DNA of 43,480 bases from Gammaproteobacteria bacterium (GTDB lineage: Bacteria; Pseudomonadota; Gammaproteobacteria; Immundisolibacterales; JAKLLR01). The notes under the pieces are model-generated. The model saw nothing but the letters and a program-made list of their open reading frames with translations, was not told where the DNA came from and searched no databases. The position numbers were made by a program, and so were the translations under genes. Where the stretch lies: contig JAKLLR010000007.1 of NCBI GenBank assembly GCA_022014175.1, forward strand, positions 1-43,480, in the 5' to 3' direction. The first letter of the stretch is position 1, and every line of letters starts with the position of its first letter. Shown piece by piece: positions 20,145 through 28,898 of the stretch.

Positions 20145-20158
20145 TTGACCTACATCAA
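20145..20158. promoter_or_regulatory. FNR/ANR box TTGACctacATCAA upstream of first Rieske oxygenase
   Basis: Read directly: TTGAC-CTAC-ATCAA against consensus TTGAT-N4-ATCAA (9/10); ~80 nt upstream of ATG 20233. Confidence 0.75.
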
Positions 20159-20180: not shown

Positions 20181-20232
20181 GCAAGCTCTCCTGCCAGCAG
20201 GCGCAATAGCGCTCTAGCCTTGGAGAGACACT

Positions 20233-21438
20233 ATGAATTCCCCCGTAGAAAACCGCTTTACCCAGCAACACCCCGAGCTGGGCCGTGGCCCGGTGCAGGT
20301 CACACCCAACATCTCCCCGGACTATTTTGAGCTTGAGCGGGAGAAAATTTTTAAGCAATCCTGGCTCAATGTCGGCTGCGAGATGGATATCCCGAATAAG
20401 GGGGACTACTTCGTTAAGGACATCCAGGTACTCAACGCCTCCCTCATCATTGTTCGCGGCAAAGATAGTGTGGTCCGGGCTTTCCATAACGCCTGCACCC
20501 ACCGGGGCAACAAGGTCGCGGAAAGCTGCGGGCACACCAAGGGGTTTGCCTGCGGCTTCCACGGCTGGACCTTCGACACCAAGGGCGAACTTGCCTACGT
20601 GCCGGATGAAGGGCAGTTCTTCGACCTGGACAAATCCAAACTTGGCCTGAAGCCGGTGCCCTGCGAATCCTGGAACGGTTTTATCTTTATTCATCCCCAG
20701 GAAAAACCGCCCCAGCCGCTGGCGGAATTTCTGGGCGGACTGGGGCAACAGCTGCAAGACTACCCGTTCCAGAAGCTAACCCGTGTCGGCAAGTTCCGGG
20801 CGGAGGTCAAGGTCAACTGGAAAGTCATCATTGACGCCTTTCAGGAGTCCTACCACGCCGGATTCGTACACAAATACAGTGCCGGAAACGCCATAGCCAC
20901 TGGTTCGGATCCATTCTGCCATATGACCTCCTTTCGGCTTTACGAACAGGGCCATCGGTCGGGCTCCTGCCCTCTGAATCCTGACCACGAACTGACCCGG
21001 TCAGAACAGCTGGCAACCCGCATTCGCGCGTCCATATGGGCTCAGGAGACCTCCGAGAGCCACCCGATTCCGCCCGGGGCAAACCCCGAAAACCATCCCT
21101 TGTGGATGTTTGATATCAATGTGGTCTTCCCCAACTTCTTTATCGACGTGGCCAACGGCTGGTTCTTTACCTACAACTTCTGGCCCGTTGCGGTGGACAA
21201 GACTCTCTACGAAATCAGCTACTACATGGATCCGCCGAATAACGCCGGCGAAAAAATCAGTGTTGAGCACTCCAAAATCTCTCTGCGGGATCTGCTGAGG
21301 GAGGATCTCAACACGGTGGAAACCACTCAGGCTGCACTGATGTCCGGCGCCCTGGAGACGATTCTCCTCTCTGATCAGGAGCTTTTATGCCGCCACCAGT
21401 ACAAGGTGGTGGACCAGCTTGTTACCAACCAGAACTAA
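20233..21438 (+). CDS. Rieske non-heme iron oxygenase alpha subunit (paralog 1)
   Basis: Rieske CTHRGNKVAESCGHTKGFACGFHGWTF; mononuclear Fe motif DAFQESYHAGFVH; 401 aa. Confidence 0.93.
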   Translation: MNSPVENRFTQQHPELGRGPVQVTPNISPDYFELEREKIFKQSWLNVGCEMDIPNKGDYFVKDIQVLNASLIIVRGKDSVVRAFHNACTHRGNKVAESCGHTKGFACGFHGWTFDTKGELAYVPDEGQFFDLDKSKLGLKPVPCESWNGFIFIHPQEKPPQPLAEFLGGLGQQLQDYPFQKLTRVGKFRAEVKVNWKVIIDAFQESYHAGFVHKYSAGNAIATGSDPFCHMTSFRLYEQGHRSGSCPLNPDHELTRSEQLATRIRASIWAQETSESHPIPPGANPENHPLWMFDINVVFPNFFIDVANGWFFTYNFWPVAVDKTLYEISYYMDPPNNAGEKISVEHSKISLRDLLREDLNTVETTQAALMSGALETILLSDQELLCRHQYKVVDQLVTNQN

Positions 21439-21461
21439 AACCCCAGGAGGAATTATCAATG

Positions 21462-21782
21462 GCAAAACTACCGGACAATTTTAGCGATCTCGCCCCTTTT
21501 GTAGACGAATGGGCCCTGGCCACCGAGCTGGAACGAAACACCCATCGCAGAGCCTGCACCCAGGCCCAACTCCAGCTTTATTACGATACCTTACTGCCAA
21601 AAATGGACGCGATTGTCGAGCATCTGAACACCTTTCCCCTCGACGACATGCCAGCCCCGGAGAGCTCGCTGCTCAACCTGGCCCTGATGTTCATGGAGGT
21701 CTCACCTGCAATCGAGCTCTTTCACCAGCCGGATGTGCCAGACAGCTTTGAGGCGGAGCGGTTCGAAATCCTCCAGCCCTGA
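21462..21782 (+). CDS. Small conserved protein associated with the Rieske oxygenase (paralog 1)
   Basis: MAKLPDNFSDLAPFVDEWALATELERNTHRRACTQ...LALMFMEVSPAIELFHQPDVPDSFEAERFEILQP, preceded by AGGAGG. It starts inside ORF 21387..21782 and has two homologs in this window. Confidence 0.85.
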   Translation, partial: AKLPDNFSDLAPFVDEWALATELERNTHRRACTQAQLQLYYDTLLPKMDAIVEHLNTFPLDDMPAPESSLLNLALMFMEVSPAIELFHQPDVPDSFEAERFEILQP

Positions 21783-21804: not shown

Positions 21805-21831
21805 GAAAAGGCGCACTAAGTGCGCCTTTTC
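21805..21831 (+). terminator. Rho-independent terminator-like hairpin
   Basis: GAAAAGGCGCAC-TAA-GTGCGCCTTTTC, 12 bp perfect stem with T-rich 3' arm. Confidence 0.85.
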
Positions 21832-21855: not shown

Positions 21856-21869
21856 TTGATCTGCATCAA
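21856..21869. promoter_or_regulatory. Perfect FNR/ANR box TTGATctgcATCAA upstream of second Rieske oxygenase
   Basis: Read directly: 10/10 match to TTGAT-N4-ATCAA; ~73 nt upstream of ATG 21936. Confidence 0.85.
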
Positions 21870-21935
21870 TGTCAGTAGCGGCTGCTCCTCCCAGACTGGC
21901 CCCACACTGGCAGCAACAGGGAAGGGAAAAGCGAC

Positions 21936-23129
21936 ATGAATGCACCGCAACAGGCCTACACACTCAAACACCCGGAACTTGGCACCGGCCCAATCTCCAC
22001 TGAACCAAATATCTCCCCCGAATATTTTGAGCGGGAGCGGGAGCAGCTGTTCAAAAAGTGCTGGCTCAACGTGGCACATCTGCAGGAGGTCCCCAAACCC
22101 GGTGATTACGTGGTCTGGGATCTCGCTGTTCTCAATGCCTCGGTGATTATCGTGCATGGCCAGGATGGTCAGATCCGCGCCTTCCACAACGCCTGCACTC
22201 ATCGCGGCAATAAGGTCGCCGAAGGCCGGGGCAACAGCAAGGGGTTTGCCTGTGGTTTTCATGGCTGGACCTTCAATACCGAGGGCAATCTGGCCTTTGT
22301 GCCCGACGAAGGGCAGTTTTTCGATCTGGACAAACAGTGCCTCGGCCTGAAAGCAATCAACTGCGATGTCTGGCACGGTGCGATCTTCATCAACATGATG
22401 GATCAGCCACGGGAAACACTGGCCGAATGGATGTCCGACTATGATGACACCCTGGGTCAATTTCCTTTCCAGGAGATGGAGCTGATGGGCTGCTGGAGCG
22501 CTGACGTCGGGGTCAGCTGGAAAGTCTTCGTCGATGCTTTTCAGGAGTCCTACCATGTTGGTTTTGTCCACGCCCGCTCTGTGCCTGATGGCTTCGTGAC
22601 ACAAGACAACCCCTACTGCCATGTGCCCGGGTTTCGCCTGTTTGATTACCATCGGGCTACCACCTGCCCGGCCAATCCGAAGCATAGCCTCTGGCCCTCC
22701 GAGGCTGTCGCCATGAAGCAGGGTGCAATGTCGCTCACAGCCGGCGGATTAACCGAGGAAGGTTATCCTGGGACCAACCCGCAGAAGATCGAAGACTTTG
22801 GCTTCGATATCAACGTGATATTCCCGAACTTTTTTCAGGATGTCTCAAACGGATGGTTCTTCAGCTACAACTTCTGGCCCACGGCCCATAACCGCACCCT
22901 GTGGCAGGTCAAGCTATTCACCCTCAAGCCAAAAACTCCGGCGGATCTGGTATCAGCAGAGTTGACCAAAGTCGTACTGCGGGATGCGATCCGGGAAGAT
23001 CTCAACACCATGGAGAGCACCCAGCAGGGACTCGATTCCCGGGCGGTCGATACGGTTCTGTTCTCGGATCAGGAGTTGGCCTGCCGCCACCAGTACGCGG
23101 TGGTCGAAAACTTCATGAACCGGGATTAA
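21936..23129 (+). CDS. Rieske non-heme iron oxygenase alpha subunit (paralog 2)
   Basis: CTHRGNKVAEGRGNSKGFACGFHGWTF; DAFQESYHVGFVH; 397 aa. Confidence 0.93.
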   Translation: MNAPQQAYTLKHPELGTGPISTEPNISPEYFEREREQLFKKCWLNVAHLQEVPKPGDYVVWDLAVLNASVIIVHGQDGQIRAFHNACTHRGNKVAEGRGNSKGFACGFHGWTFNTEGNLAFVPDEGQFFDLDKQCLGLKAINCDVWHGAIFINMMDQPRETLAEWMSDYDDTLGQFPFQEMELMGCWSADVGVSWKVFVDAFQESYHVGFVHARSVPDGFVTQDNPYCHVPGFRLFDYHRATTCPANPKHSLWPSEAVAMKQGAMSLTAGGLTEEGYPGTNPQKIEDFGFDINVIFPNFFQDVSNGWFFSYNFWPTAHNRTLWQVKLFTLKPKTPADLVSAELTKVVLRDAIREDLNTMESTQQGLDSRAVDTVLFSDQELACRHQYAVVENFMNRD

Positions 23130-23144
23130 ACGGAGGAGATCGAT

Positions 23145-23498
23145 ATGGAATACACCCTGCCCGATCAGTTCAACGAAATTCAGCCCCTGGCGGAAGAGTG
23201 GGCCTTTGCCGACGAAGCCGCGAGGAACCATAAGCGACGTGCTTCGAGCATGGCGGAGATTCAGGGGTTTTACGATGCCATGCGGCCCCAGATGGACTCA
23301 GCCATGACCTATCTCAACGGCTTCAAACTGGCTGACACCCCGGAAGAGGCCAAAACAGTGCTTTATCTGGCCCTGATGTTCATGGAAGTCTCAACCGCCG
23401 TTGAGATGTATCAGGAGGTCGATGTGCCAGAGAGCTTTCCCGCCGAGCGCTACAACATTCTCAGCCCCAGCGCGGATCACTTCATGACCGCCGGATGA
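23145..23498 (+). CDS. Small conserved protein associated with the Rieske oxygenase (paralog 2)
   Basis: MEYTLPDQFNEIQPLAEEWAFADEAARNHKRRASSMAEIQGFYDAMRPQMD...LALMFMEVSTAVEMYQEVDVPESFPAERYNILSP; GGAGG ahead of start. Confidence 0.85.
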   Translation: MEYTLPDQFNEIQPLAEEWAFADEAARNHKRRASSMAEIQGFYDAMRPQMDSAMTYLNGFKLADTPEEAKTVLYLALMFMEVSTAVEMYQEVDVPESFPAERYNILSPSADHFMTAG

Positions 23499-23546
23499 AA
23501 CAACCGAGCATCTCCTCCAACCTCTTTTATTAGAGGTGCGTTCTTG

Positions 23547-23571
23547 CGCGGCCTTCGGGCCGCGTTTTTTT
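23547..23571 (+). terminator. Rho-independent terminator
   Basis: CGCGGCC-TTCG-GGCCGCG followed by TTTTTTT. Confidence 0.93.
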
Positions 23572-23701
23572 GCTTGATTTTGATCCCGGGTCCCGTGCTA
23601 GTCTTAACGACTCCGAGAAGACTCGGGAATAATAACTATATAAACACCGTGGATATCTCTCCGCGCACAATGACAACGCAAAACAATAGAGGATGATCAT
23701 T

Positions 23702-24028
23702 ATGAACACCACCCTGCCCGCCGGTTTTGAAGATCTGCAAAAATACGTGCCGGCCTGGAACATTGAGAAAGAGGCAGAACGCAACAAAAAACGGCTTGCC
23801 AGCACCATGGAGGAGTTGCAGGACTACTACGACACCCTGCTACCGCGCATGGATGCCATGGTCGAACACTTGAACCAGTTCCCCCTCGACAGCATGCCGG
23901 AATCCGAAACAGCACTGCTGCAGCTGGCCCTGATGTTCATGGAAGTTTCACCGGCCATCGAGCTGTTCCACCAGCCGGATGTGCCAGACAGCTTTGAAGC
24001 AGCACGATTTGAAATTCTGGAGCCCTGA
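23702..24028 (+). CDS. Small conserved protein associated with the Rieske oxygenase (paralog 3)
   Basis: MNTTLPAGFEDLQKYVPAWNIEKEAERNKKRLASTMEELQDYYDTLLPRMDAMVEHLNQFPLDSMPESETALLQLALMFMEVSPAIELFHQPDVPDSFEAARFEILEP; C-terminus nearly identical to paralog 1. Precedes its Rieske gene rather than following it. Confidence 0.85.
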   Translation: MNTTLPAGFEDLQKYVPAWNIEKEAERNKKRLASTMEELQDYYDTLLPRMDAMVEHLNQFPLDSMPESETALLQLALMFMEVSPAIELFHQPDVPDSFEAARFEILEP

Positions 24029-24106: not shown

Positions 24107-25312
24107 ATGAATGCCCCCCAAACCGGACCCGCTAACGCAATCACCGCACGTTATCCTGAGCTGGGCACCGGCCCGGTCTCTACTGAAGCGGTCATCTCCC
24201 CTGAATACTTTGAGAAGGAGCGGGAGAAGATATTCAAGAAGTCCTGGCTAAATGTGGGGCGCATCGATCAAATTCCCAGCCCGGGCGACTACATGGTGCG
24301 GGATCTCGACATCCTCAATACCTCCCTGATCATCGTGCAGGGTCAGGATAGTCAGGTCCGGGCCTTCCACAACGCCTGCCCCCATCGGGGTAACAAGGTC
24401 GCCCAGGGCAAAGGCAATACAAAGGGGTTTGCCTGCGGCTTCCACGGCTGGACTTTCAACACCGAAGGCTCTCTGGTCTTTGTACCCGATGAAGAGCAGT
24501 TCTTCGATTTCGACAAAGGCGACTTCTGTCTGAAGGCCGTCAACTGCGAGACCTGGAATGGGTTTGTGTTCATCAATGTAGAGGAACAGCCCAGTGAAAC
24601 CCTGCTGGAGTGGGTGGGAGAACTGGACCGCCAGTTAGACGGCTATCCGTTTGATGATATGGTCTGCCTTGGCGAGTACCGGGCAGAGGTAAAGGCCAAC
24701 TGGAAAGTCGTGATCGATGCCTTTCAGGAGGCCTACCACGTCGCTTTTGTTCATCGACGTACGGCGACCGGTGCCTATACCAGCCCAGAGACCCCCTACT
24801 GCAAGCTCTCTGCGGTGGAGCTCTATGGCCGCAACCGGCGGGGTTCGGTCTACGCCAACCCCGACTTCACCCCTTCGCCCTCCGCGGCGGTTGCCTTTAA
24901 GCATGGTCCGACATTCATTCAGGCCGCACAGGCAGATCTGGACAAGCTGCCGGTCGGCGTTAATCCGGAACGGACCCCGAACTGGGGCTTTGATATCAAC
25001 GTCATCTTCCCGAATTTCCGCTTCGATCCAGGCCAGGGCTTCTATTTTGCCGACAACTTCCTGCCCATCTCTGTTGACCAAACCCTTTACGAGATTCGTC
25101 TCTATATGCCACGGCCCAGGAATGCGGGGGAGATGATCAGCCAGGAGAACACCCGGGTACTGCTGCGCGATATCGTTCGGGAAGACCTCAACACCCTGGA
25201 AACAACCCAGGAAGCGCTCAACACCGGCGTCATGGATACCATCCGCTTTTCCGACCAGGAAATTCTCTGCCGCCACCAGTACAAGGTGGTGGACGACATC
25301 GTTAACAGCTAG
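24107..25312 (+). CDS. Rieske non-heme iron oxygenase alpha subunit (paralog 3)
   Basis: CPHRGNKVAQGKGNTKGFACGFHGWTF; DAFQEAYHVAFVH; 401 aa. Confidence 0.93.
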   Translation: MNAPQTGPANAITARYPELGTGPVSTEAVISPEYFEKEREKIFKKSWLNVGRIDQIPSPGDYMVRDLDILNTSLIIVQGQDSQVRAFHNACPHRGNKVAQGKGNTKGFACGFHGWTFNTEGSLVFVPDEEQFFDFDKGDFCLKAVNCETWNGFVFINVEEQPSETLLEWVGELDRQLDGYPFDDMVCLGEYRAEVKANWKVVIDAFQEAYHVAFVHRRTATGAYTSPETPYCKLSAVELYGRNRRGSVYANPDFTPSPSAAVAFKHGPTFIQAAQADLDKLPVGVNPERTPNWGFDINVIFPNFRFDPGQGFYFADNFLPISVDQTLYEIRLYMPRPRNAGEMISQENTRVLLRDIVREDLNTLETTQEALNTGVMDTIRFSDQEILCRHQYKVVDDIVNS

Positions 25313-25389: not shown

Positions 25390-25403
25390 CTGATCCATGT
25401 CAA
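25390..25403. promoter_or_regulatory. Degenerate FNR/ANR-like box CTGATccatGTCAA upstream of ompW-like gene
   Basis: 8/10 match to TTGAT-N4-ATCAA; flanking ...TCAATGCAATAGCCGC resembles ...TCAATGTCAGTAGCGGC after the box at 21856. Confidence 0.5.
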
Positions 25404-25483
25404 TGCAATAGCCGCTTTTGAGTCGCACTCTGTTGTTGCTGATCCGCCTTTTGGTCAGCCTTATACAGATGGGAGCACTCTGC

Positions 25484-26119
25484 ATGAAAAGCCTGATTAC
25501 ACTCGTCGGATCATTGACTCTGGCCCTCGGTTGCGCGACCACAGCCCTGGCAGTCGAACAGGGCGACTGGCTGGTTCGGGGCCGCATCATCAATGTCAGC
25601 CCTGATGACAGCAGCGGGCCGGTACCTGGGTTTGCGGGCTCCTCAGTCGGTGTGGACGACGCCTGGACTGCGGAAGTCGATTTCACCTACATGGTGACCA
25701 ACAATCTGGGGCTGGAGCTTATTCTGGCCACCAGTGAGCACGATGTGGACGGCAGCGGCAGTATCAGCGGTTTGGGCGACATTATTGAAGCGAGCGTATT
25801 GCCACCCACCCTGACCCTGCAATACCACTTCACCCCCCAGGCGAAGTTCCGCCCCTATGCGGGCGCCGGTGTGAACTACACCATGTTTTACAGCGAAGAG
25901 ACTAAAGGTGCCCTGAGCGGTCTGGATGTTTCCCTGGAAAATTCCTGGGGCTGGGCTGCCCAGCTCGGGGCTGACTGGGATCTCAACAGTGACTGGTTCC
26001 TGAATGTCGACGTCAAATACGTGGACATCGACACCACCGCCAAAATCGCGGGCATCGGCAATGTCAGCGTAGAGATTGATCCCGTCATCTTCGGCATCGG
26101 CGTCGGTAAGCGGTTCTAG
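25484..26119 (+). CDS. OmpW-family outer membrane protein
   Basis: Signal peptide MKSLITLVGSLTLALGCATTALA; GDWLVRGRIINVSPDDSSG, NLGLELILATSEHDV, LPPTLTLQYHFTPQAKFRPYAGAGVNYTMFY, GVGKRF C-terminus with terminal Phe. Confidence 0.92.
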   Translation: MKSLITLVGSLTLALGCATTALAVEQGDWLVRGRIINVSPDDSSGPVPGFAGSSVGVDDAWTAEVDFTYMVTNNLGLELILATSEHDVDGSGSISGLGDIIEASVLPPTLTLQYHFTPQAKFRPYAGAGVNYTMFYSEETKGALSGLDVSLENSWGWAAQLGADWDLNSDWFLNVDVKYVDIDTTAKIAGIGNVSVEIDPVIFGIGVGKRF

Positions 26120-26193: not shown

Positions 26194-27120
26194 ATGTCAG
26201 TTATCCGTCTCGGGCACCTCAGCCTGAAAGTCATGGATCTGGATGCAGCCATCCACCACTACGCCAACATCATTGGGCTTGTGCTGACGGAGCGGACCGA
26301 GACCCAGGCTTTTCTGCGGGGTCGCGATGAGCAGGACCACCACTCCATCCTGCTCAACAAGTCCGATAGTGCGGGACTGGATCACATCGGCTTCAAGGTC
26401 GGTCGTGAAGAGGATCTGGCGGTGGCGGAACAACTCATCACTAAAGCCGGGGCAGCGGTACAACATATCAGCGCTGGCGAAGAGAAGGGTCAGGGTCGGG
26501 CGATCCGCTTTCAGCTGCCTTCACAGCAGACCATCGAACTCTACTATCACGCCGACAAACTGCCCTACCTGAACGGCATGGAAAACCCGGATCCGGTACT
26601 GCGGGAAGGCGAGGTAGCCGGGGTGAAATGCAGCCGTCTCGACCATCTGCTGATCTCCACCACCGATGTAGAAGCCAACATGAAATTCATGCGGGATATT
26701 CTCGACTTCGGCACCAGCGAACAGCTGGTGGACGATGCCGGCGTTCCCCAGGCGGTGTGGCTCTTCTGCACCAACACCATGCACGACATGGCCATGTCCC
26801 CCGGGCCGGACGGCGGTCTCCAGCACCTGGCCTTCTGGGTGGATAACCGCTCGGATGTGGTCAACGCGGTCGATGTCTTCAAGAAAAACAACGTGCGGAC
26901 TTTTGATTATGGCCTTACCCGTCACGGCGTAAGTGGTGGCACCACCGTCTACTTCTTTGACCCGTCGGGCAACCGTAACGAAATTTTCACCGGCCCTTAC
27001 ATGACCACTCCAGTACCGGGGCGGGTCGCCCCCATCAGCTGGGATATGGAGAACTTCCCCCGGGGCGCGTTCTATTACGAAAATGAGCTCGACATGAACT
27101 TTTTTGGGGAACTGACCTAA
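26194..27120 (+). CDS. VOC-superfamily extradiol (catechol 2,3-dioxygenase-like) ring-cleavage dioxygenase
   Basis: Two-domain VOC protein; putative Fe ligands in CSRLDHLLIS, GGLQHLAFWVDN, FFDPSGNRNEIFTGPY. Confidence 0.88.
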   Translation: MSVIRLGHLSLKVMDLDAAIHHYANIIGLVLTERTETQAFLRGRDEQDHHSILLNKSDSAGLDHIGFKVGREEDLAVAEQLITKAGAAVQHISAGEEKGQGRAIRFQLPSQQTIELYYHADKLPYLNGMENPDPVLREGEVAGVKCSRLDHLLISTTDVEANMKFMRDILDFGTSEQLVDDAGVPQAVWLFCTNTMHDMAMSPGPDGGLQHLAFWVDNRSDVVNAVDVFKKNNVRTFDYGLTRHGVSGGTTVYFFDPSGNRNEIFTGPYMTTPVPGRVAPISWDMENFPRGAFYYENELDMNFFGELT

Positions 27121-27148
27121 AGGTCGGTCCGGCACGCGGAGAACAACA

Positions 27149-28105
27149 ATGGCTCTGGAACATCGCGGTATTTTGCGGCTCGGCTATATCCGAGCCGGCC
27201 TGAATGACCCCCGCCTGGAGAAGTCACGACGCTTTTACAAAGAGGTCATCGGCATGCTGGAGACCACCCTGGAAGGGGGCCGGACCTACCTGCGCTGCTG
27301 GCACGAACCCCACCAGTTCTCCCTGGTGATCGAGGAGACCCCGGAGAACCAGCTGATTGAGATCGGCTTCGAGGTTCGAGACCAGCTGGATCTGGACAGG
27401 ATCACCGCACGTGTAAGTGGCCAGGATATCGAAGTCGAGTCCGCCGGGGCCAACACAGCCCTCAACGGGCTCGGCCCCTCCATCGCTTTCAAGATTCCTG
27501 GCGGACAGCGACTGCGGCTCTACTACCACATGCAACAACCGGGTTACGTCACCGGCTACTCATCGCCGGACTGGAACGTACCCAAGCTTCTGCGGGGCAA
27601 ACCCGCCCCCCTGTTTCTGGTCCACTGCGGCATCACCAGCCCGAACCCGGCAGAAACCATCGCCTTTCTGACAGATGTTCTGGAATTTGGGGTTGCAGAA
27701 AAGATTCTCACAGATGATGGCCACTCCACGCTGTCCGCCCTGCTGTTCCGCTCCGCCCACGGATGTGGGCATGATCTCGCGGTGTTCCCGGGAGAAGCCG
27801 GCAAACTTCACCATATTGCTTTCAACCAGGAGGACGAGACCGAGATACTCCAGAGCGGCACCTACCTGCGGGAAGACGGAGTTAAAATTGATATTTATGG
27901 CCCGACCCGGCAGTCCTACGGCAAGACATTCTCCCTGCACTTTTTTGACGACTGCGGCATACGCAACGAACTCTGTGCCGGGGGTCGGCTCAACGAGCTG
28001 CACCCGGAATTCATGCCCGTAAACTGGACCGAAGCCAACCTCGCCAAAGCGCTCTCCTATTTTGACAACAACATGAATGAGGGCTTTCTGACACCTTCCA
28101 TTTAA
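27149..28105 (+). CDS. VOC-superfamily extradiol dioxygenase-like protein (second, divergent copy)
   Basis: Putative ligands in LFLVHCGIT, KLHHIAFNQE, FFDDCGIRNELCAGG; adjacent to and co-oriented with 26194..27120. Confidence 0.82.
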   Translation: MALEHRGILRLGYIRAGLNDPRLEKSRRFYKEVIGMLETTLEGGRTYLRCWHEPHQFSLVIEETPENQLIEIGFEVRDQLDLDRITARVSGQDIEVESAGANTALNGLGPSIAFKIPGGQRLRLYYHMQQPGYVTGYSSPDWNVPKLLRGKPAPLFLVHCGITSPNPAETIAFLTDVLEFGVAEKILTDDGHSTLSALLFRSAHGCGHDLAVFPGEAGKLHHIAFNQEDETEILQSGTYLREDGVKIDIYGPTRQSYGKTFSLHFFDDCGIRNELCAGGRLNELHPEFMPVNWTEANLAKALSYFDNNMNEGFLTPSI

Positions 28106-28193
28106 AAAACCGGAAAGATTGCGCGGTTTTAGTTAGACTGAATACCACTATAAACGCCGTGGTGAGTGCGGCAGAAGTCAGTGGAGATGCCCT

Positions 28194-28898
28194 TTGCAGC
28201 AGATTCAAGTCGCCTGCCAGAATTGTGCGTTGGCCCGTCTGTGCCTGCCCGTAGCCCTGGGTTCAGAGGATCTGGTCAAGCTTGATGGCCTGATCAAACA
28301 ACCCCGGGCAATCGACAGGAACGAACACCTGTTCCATATGAATGACCCGTTTGAGTCGCTCTACATCGTTCGCTCAGGCTGTATCAAAACCTATACGCCG
28401 AGCCCGTCCGGTGAGGAGCAGGTCACCGGCTTTTACCTGCCCGGAGAGCTCTTTGGCCTCAGCGGAATCAATAGCGGCAAACAGCCCACCGCGGCCCAGG
28501 CACTGGAACGAACCAACATCTGTGAGCTACCGTTCAGCAAGATGGATGACGTCACCCAACAGATTCCCGCCCTCTCGCAGCAGATCATCAAAGTCATGAG
28601 CGATGAACTGATGCATGACCAGGAGCTGCTCGGTCTATTGGGCAAGAAAAGCGCTGAAGCCCGTATCGCGGCTTTTTTGACCAATCTGGCCAAACGTTGC
28701 AGCAAGCGTCACCTCTCCGCCACGGAAATCACCCTGAATATGTCCCGCAGCGACATTGGCAACTATCTGGGTCTGGCCGAGGAGACCGTGAGCCGCACCT
28801 TTACCCGCTTTGTCAATGAAGAGATCCTGAGTGTACAACGTCGAGAGGTCTCTATCCTCGATCCGGAACGGCTGCAGAAAATGACCTGCAGCAGCTAG
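28194..28898 (+). CDS. fnr: FNR-type Crp/Fnr family oxygen-sensing transcriptional regulator (TTG start probable)
   Basis: CQNCALARLC (C-x2-C-x5-C) plus TNICELPF cysteine equivalent to E. coli FNR C122; HTH SRSDIGNYLGLAEETVSRTFTRF. Confidence 0.92.
   Translation: MQQIQVACQNCALARLCLPVALGSEDLVKLDGLIKQPRAIDRNEHLFHMNDPFESLYIVRSGCIKTYTPSPSGEEQVTGFYLPGELFGLSGINSGKQPTAAQALERTNICELPFSKMDDVTQQIPALSQQIIKVMSDELMHDQELLGLLGKKSAEARIAAFLTNLAKRCSKRHLSATEITLNMSRSDIGNYLGLAEETVSRTFTRFVNEEILSVQRREVSILDPERLQKMTCSS

Follow-up and report, generated by a model that had tools for sequence, protein, structure and literature searches.

The window analysed here, the whole stretch of 43,480 nt, carries three modules in which a Rieske oxygenase gene is paired with a gene for a small companion protein, followed by an OmpW-family gene, two extradiol (catechol 2,3-dioxygenase-like) genes and a gene for an FNR-family regulator (Table 1). 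The module 2 oxygenase contains a CTH...CGFH motif (C-x-H / C-x2-H), and it matches PF00355 with 63 bits and PF00848 (Ring_hydroxyl_A) with 108 bits. A motif scan over the 43,480 nt returned a sole perfect TTGATN4ATCAA site, TTGATCTGCATCAA, which agrees with the palindrome at 10/10 positions and is intergenic, lying between the terminator-like hairpin behind module 1 and the oxygenase ATG at 21936; the four-T tail of that hairpin is below the threshold of the terminator scan. The perfect FNR/ANR box given in the preliminary description of this DNA was thus confirmed, while the distance of 73 nt to the start codon given there is correct from the box centre but not from the box end, where the gap is 66 nt. 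The box ahead of module 1, TTGACctacATCAAtg, matches the strict consensus at 9/10 positions and the relaxed form TTGAYN4RTCAA at 10/10, and is directly followed by TG. A TG flank matching that of module 1 had likewise been described for module 2, and TG does follow both boxes. This gene-directed flank is common to modules 1 and 2, the ompW box (25390) and a further Rieske locus on contig C99, but it is absent from most other intergenic boxes and was rejected as a general defining feature.

Table 1. Features of the window around the module 2 promoter (positions in nt from the first letter of the window).
Feature	Position	Strand	Details	Source
FNR-type box ahead of module 1	20145..20158	+	TTGACctacATCAA; 74 nt between box and ATG	motif scan
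-10-like hexamer, module 1	20182..20187	+	CAAGCT; starts 24 nt past the box	promoter alignment
Module 1 Rieske oxygenase	20233..21438	+	401 aa	profile search
Module 1 companion	21459..21782	+	small protein	
Terminator-like hairpin	21810..21826	+	GGCGCAC-TAA-GTGCGCC, then TTTT; stands between module 1 and the promoter of module 2	read from sequence
FNR/ANR-type box ahead of module 2	21856..21869	+	TTGATctgcATCAA	motif scan, enrichment counts
-10-like hexamer, module 2	21892..21897	+	CAGACT; starts 23 nt past the box, class II spacing	promoter alignment
Module 2 Rieske oxygenase	21936..23129	+	397 aa; PF00355 and PF00848	profile search
Module 2 companion	23145..23498	+	small helical protein, 117 aa, no family match	
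Intrinsic-terminator-like hairpin	23546..23565	+	closes module 2	terminator scan
Weak half-site ahead of module 3	23574..23587	+	TTGATtttgATCCC	motif scan
Module 3 Rieske oxygenase	24107..25312	+	companion (23702-24028) upstream	profile search
Near-match box ahead of ompW	25390..25403	+	CTGATccatGTCAA, then TG; 80 nt upstream of ompW	motif scan
-10-like hexamer, ompW	25426..25431	+	CACTCT; starts 23 nt past the box	promoter alignment
OmpW-family outer-membrane protein	25484..26119	+	PF03922, 186 bits	profile search
Two extradiol (catechol 2,3-dioxygenase-like) genes	26194..28105	+	26194-27120 and 27149-28105	TIGR03211, 314 and 201 bits (cut-off 320)
FNR-family regulator	28194..28898	+	234 aa	NF008365, 253 bits (cut-off 228)

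Within the window, six sites carry at most one mismatch to the palindrome, compared with 0.72 expected from shuffled sequences. The genome to which the window belongs (2.2 Mb in 173 contigs, 92.6% complete) holds seven perfect strict boxes against two reversed-pattern controls, and 18 copies of TTGAYN4RTCAA, referred to below as the Y/R box, against six reversed controls. Eleven of the 18 Y/R boxes are intergenic and seven are coding, as called by a simple codon-based gene caller, with intergenic sequence making up about 11% of the sampled DNA; in DNA sampled blind to the motif, perfect Y/R boxes amount to 3.4 per 10 kb of intergenic and 0.075 per 10 kb of coding sequence. Moreover, when 20 permutations of the half-site were counted in intergenic DNA, TTGAT gave four near-matches and every other permutation at most one. 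The TTGAYN4RTCAA motif in this genome is not background; the preliminary description had named a box equally common in background intergenic DNA as the finding that would speak against its reading, and what was found is enrichment over the controls. Elsewhere in the genome, boxes lie near genes for a c-type cytochrome, a CBS-domain protein, an Hsp20 and a CcoI-like ATPase, all of them kinds of gene common in FNR/ANR regulons.

Box-anchored alignment revealed a -10-like hexamer, CAnnCT, starting 22-24 nt past the box in the promoters of modules 1 and 2, of ompW and of Rieske genes in the sister family. At this offset, five promoters have four columns in common, compared with a maximum of two in 2000 shuffles, a figure that is optimistic because the test came after the pattern had been noticed. 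In a set of 13 promoters with a box, the A2/T6 pattern of a -10 element is strongest at exactly +23; with a -10 there, the box is centred at -41.5, the position for class II activation. Module 2 fits this class II spacing of about 23 nt, with CAGACT at +23 and a predicted start site. CAnnCT resembles TATAAT poorly, and no -35/-10 pair of the sigma-70 type came up when the DNA upstream of modules 1 and 2 was scanned for promoters. Module 3 was considered as a third FNR target and rejected, its box being degraded (two mismatches), off-register and lacking a -10 element at the class II spacing; this half-site is probably non-functional.

A regulator suited to such a site is encoded in the window itself. 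The product of 28194-28898 aligns over its full length with the solved FNR structure 5cvr and keeps Cys 8, 11, 17 and 110, that is, the three N-terminal cysteines and the central one of FNR proteins. Its recognition helix, EETVSR, fits the pattern E..SR; in E. coli FNR, the residues that contact bases are E209, S212 and R213 (PMC4505428). A PF13545 search of the 92.6% complete genome found two CRP/FNR proteins in all, the second of which, on contig C155, is likewise FNR-like, with the cluster cysteines and ETISR. The palindrome could in principle be read by a family member that senses a signal other than O2 (DNR/NNR for NO, or CRP), especially as the ANR and DNR consensus sequences are indistinguishable in P. 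aeruginosa (PMC6588701), but since both of the proteins found carry cluster cysteines and E..SR, an O2-sensing FNR is the most likely protein to read the site, and we regard a non-O2 sensor as highly improbable. Judged by these features, the module 2 palindrome is likely a real binding site for the oxygen sensor FNR, and the regulator at 28194-28898 is its likely reader.

We consider it probable that the box is a class II site through which an FNR-type [4Fe-4S] oxygen sensor activates module 2 at low O2, with activation inferred from the promoter layout. As O2 falls, an FNR dimer, probably the product of 28194-28898 or else the single paralogue on C155, would bind at 21856-21869, about 41.5 bp upstream of the transcription start. 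The bound dimer would contact RNA polymerase at the weak -10 CAGACT (21892-21897), in a promoter with no recognisable -35, and this contact would switch on a two-gene unit consisting of the Rieske oxygenase and its small companion. The same kind of control would apply to module 1 and probably to ompW, and the physiological role would be a larger supply of oxygenase under O2 shortage. That a protein which activates anaerobic genes should act ahead of an O2-consuming enzyme looks paradoxical, unless it does so while O2 is low but not zero. FNR proteins vary in O2 sensitivity, and Pseudomonas putida has three of them (PMC4505428), so that activation at low, non-zero O2 is compatible with an O2-using enzyme.

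The main rival explanation accepts a true FNR site and makes it a repressor site, at which the unit would be shut off in full anoxia and a substrate-sensing regulator would drive the promoter in the presence of O2. Such a scheme offers the simplest physiological logic for an O2-dependent enzyme, and ANR represses cioA in Pseudomonas (PMC6588701). However, the box sits at the activating position of -41.5 relative to a -10-like hexamer common to five promoters, the promoter scan found no -35 or second promoter for it to block, and ompW has the same layout, with its relative oprG being ANR-activated in Pseudomonas (PMC6588701). We surmise that repression is unlikely and that activation at low O2 describes the module 2 promoter better.

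The preliminary description, whose reading is largely supported, had also argued from an independent recurrence of the box at two paralogous modules, a view that is backed by the phylogeny of the oxygenases. The Rieske tree places modules 1, 2 and 3 in separate clades, as old paralogues that are not one another's closest relatives, which speaks against a simple tandem duplication as the origin of the two boxes. A box within 150 nt is lacking at the nearest paralogues of module 1 (L041, L043) and of module 3 (L040, L042, L044, L045), and outside the block GTTGAyCTrCATCAATGT there is hardly any alignment between the regions flanking boxes 1 and 2. Given the separate clades and the box-free nearest paralogues, boxes 1 and 2 were not merely carried along by recent gene duplication; local promoter exchange between the neighbouring modules is possible.

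Across eight genomes of the order, the combination of box and CAnnCT occurs in ten copies, all intergenic, versus one reversed control. Eight of the ten precede Rieske genes or a Rieske remnant, and two of these were found by this search alone. All three copies in the genome of the window (module 1, module 2 and contig C99) lie ahead of a Rieske gene or remnant. C99 was already known from the promoter listing, and the previously unseen sites were G001:C23, G004:C98 and two in G002; among these four, G001:C23 and G004:C98 precede Rieske genes that are mutual orthologues. Their orthologues in G002 and G007 have boxes with 0 and 1 mismatch, respectively. The spacers differ among these orthologous promoters (GGCC, GACC, GCTC) with the box kept, which is the outcome expected from selection on the half-sites. 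In the sister-family genomes G001, G002 and G004, a benzoate-dioxygenase-like Rieske gene comes next to an FNR gene, with a perfect Y/R box between the two and a box-to-ATG gap of 64-65 nt compared with 66 nt at module 2. A tree ruled out the Rieske-linked FNR of the sister family as an orthologue of the FNR in the window, and the linkage between FNR and Rieske genes thus appears to have more than one origin.

The genomes compared lie outside the family of the window. In the sister family, the nearest homologues of module 2 have no box; conservation of the box there is seen at ompW, which has its own box in G001 and G002, and at other Rieske genes. Most Rieske genes in the genome of the window are also without a box. 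Four of its 22 Rieske units have one (at most one mismatch) within 150 nt, versus 0.37 expected at the genome-wide rate. Seven of the 18 Y/R boxes in this genome fall in coding DNA and a single box carries little information, as would suit a chance palindrome with no regulatory role, but such an origin is very unlikely in view of the intergenic enrichment, the -10 spacing and the recurrence ahead of Rieske genes in two families. We see about an even chance that in Immundisolibacterales a single FNR promoter type has come, time and again, to control Rieske oxygenases from different subfamilies. This type consists of the box, a gap of 22-24 nt and CAnnCT, with 64-104 nt from box to start codon in intact copies, and part of the oxygenase set would then be a low-oxygen regulon with a non-standard FNR-dependent -10.

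In kind, the module 2 site is an ordinary FNR site. The class II sites of E. coli FNR and Pseudomonas ANR and the synthetic FF-41.5 promoter (PMC4505428) have the same 14-bp palindrome and the same inferred position of -41.5, and the regulator in the window resembles those of the FNR/ANR systems in its four cluster cysteines and its E..SR helix. In contrast to those sites, the target here is a Rieske oxygenase unit and not a respiratory or fermentation gene, the -10 is CAnnCT, and the system is known from sequence. The ANR core regulon of Pseudomonas includes oprG/ompW, hemF, hemN, azu and cioA (PMC6588701); an ompW-family gene with a box is a trait common to both, whereas that regulon names no oxygenase, the word 'dioxygenase' being absent from PMC6588701. 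Immundisolibacter cernigliae belongs to the same order as the genome of the window, which is placed in another family and has about 30 Rieske matches. A record named Immundisolibacter sp. is identical to G004 at the Rieske gene, and G004 is of the same order as the window. The portions of PMC9535955 considered here describe a Rieske expansion in this organism with 21 xylX variants; they count its Rieske genes and do not mention O2-dependent control. We found no precedent in the open-access literature for an FNR/ANR-controlled Rieske oxygenase, and Rieske oxygenases of different subfamilies as FNR targets in Immundisolibacterales seem to be unreported there.

Aromatic pollutants are often found where O2 is scarce, and how O2-dependent ring attack is sustained under such conditions is an open practical question. 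If the proposed control is true, the FNR switch would mark the low-O2 enzymes among the roughly 30-70 near-redundant Rieske oxygenases of each genome, and the box plus a -10 at +23 would provide a sequence test for low-O2 oxygenases in uncultured members.

Several further features were observed in these genomes. The Rieske expansion is very large, with about 30 matches in the 2.2 Mb genome of the window (G000) and 35 to 72 in its relatives G001-G007. On C99, the box has a Rieske remnant downstream of it (P0001: ...FMFDINVVFPTFFVD...), and behind the remnant comes a companion-plus-Rieske pair. The remnant, at L048 5057-5262, is a decayed Rieske gene of which the last ~60 codons alone are left, out of frame; its start codon, with a ribosome-binding site, stands 64 nt past a perfect Y/R box, and the companion-Rieske pair downstream is intact. 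An FNR-type box also occurs in both families upstream of a gene for a secreted, EF-hand-like, Met/Gly-rich protein (L060, L072, L073, L077), a candidate conserved FNR target. Within the window, the similar strings ctatataaacaccgtgg and ccactataaacgccgtgg, at 23630-23655 and 28143-28163, lie upstream of the module 3 companion and the FNR gene, respectively, and may possibly represent a common promoter or operator.

The small companion (~110 aa) is paired with most Rieske genes of this group (window 21459-21782, 23145-23498 and 23702-24028; L010-L014, L041, L043, L044, L046-L048, L050-L053, L081, L083). Searches of Pfam, NCBIfam and PDB sequences gave no match to it, and a fold search against the PDB gave no significant match. 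Its AlphaFold2 model is a confident four-helix structure (pLDDT 91), and the companion is possibly an unrecognised accessory subunit of Rieske oxygenases.
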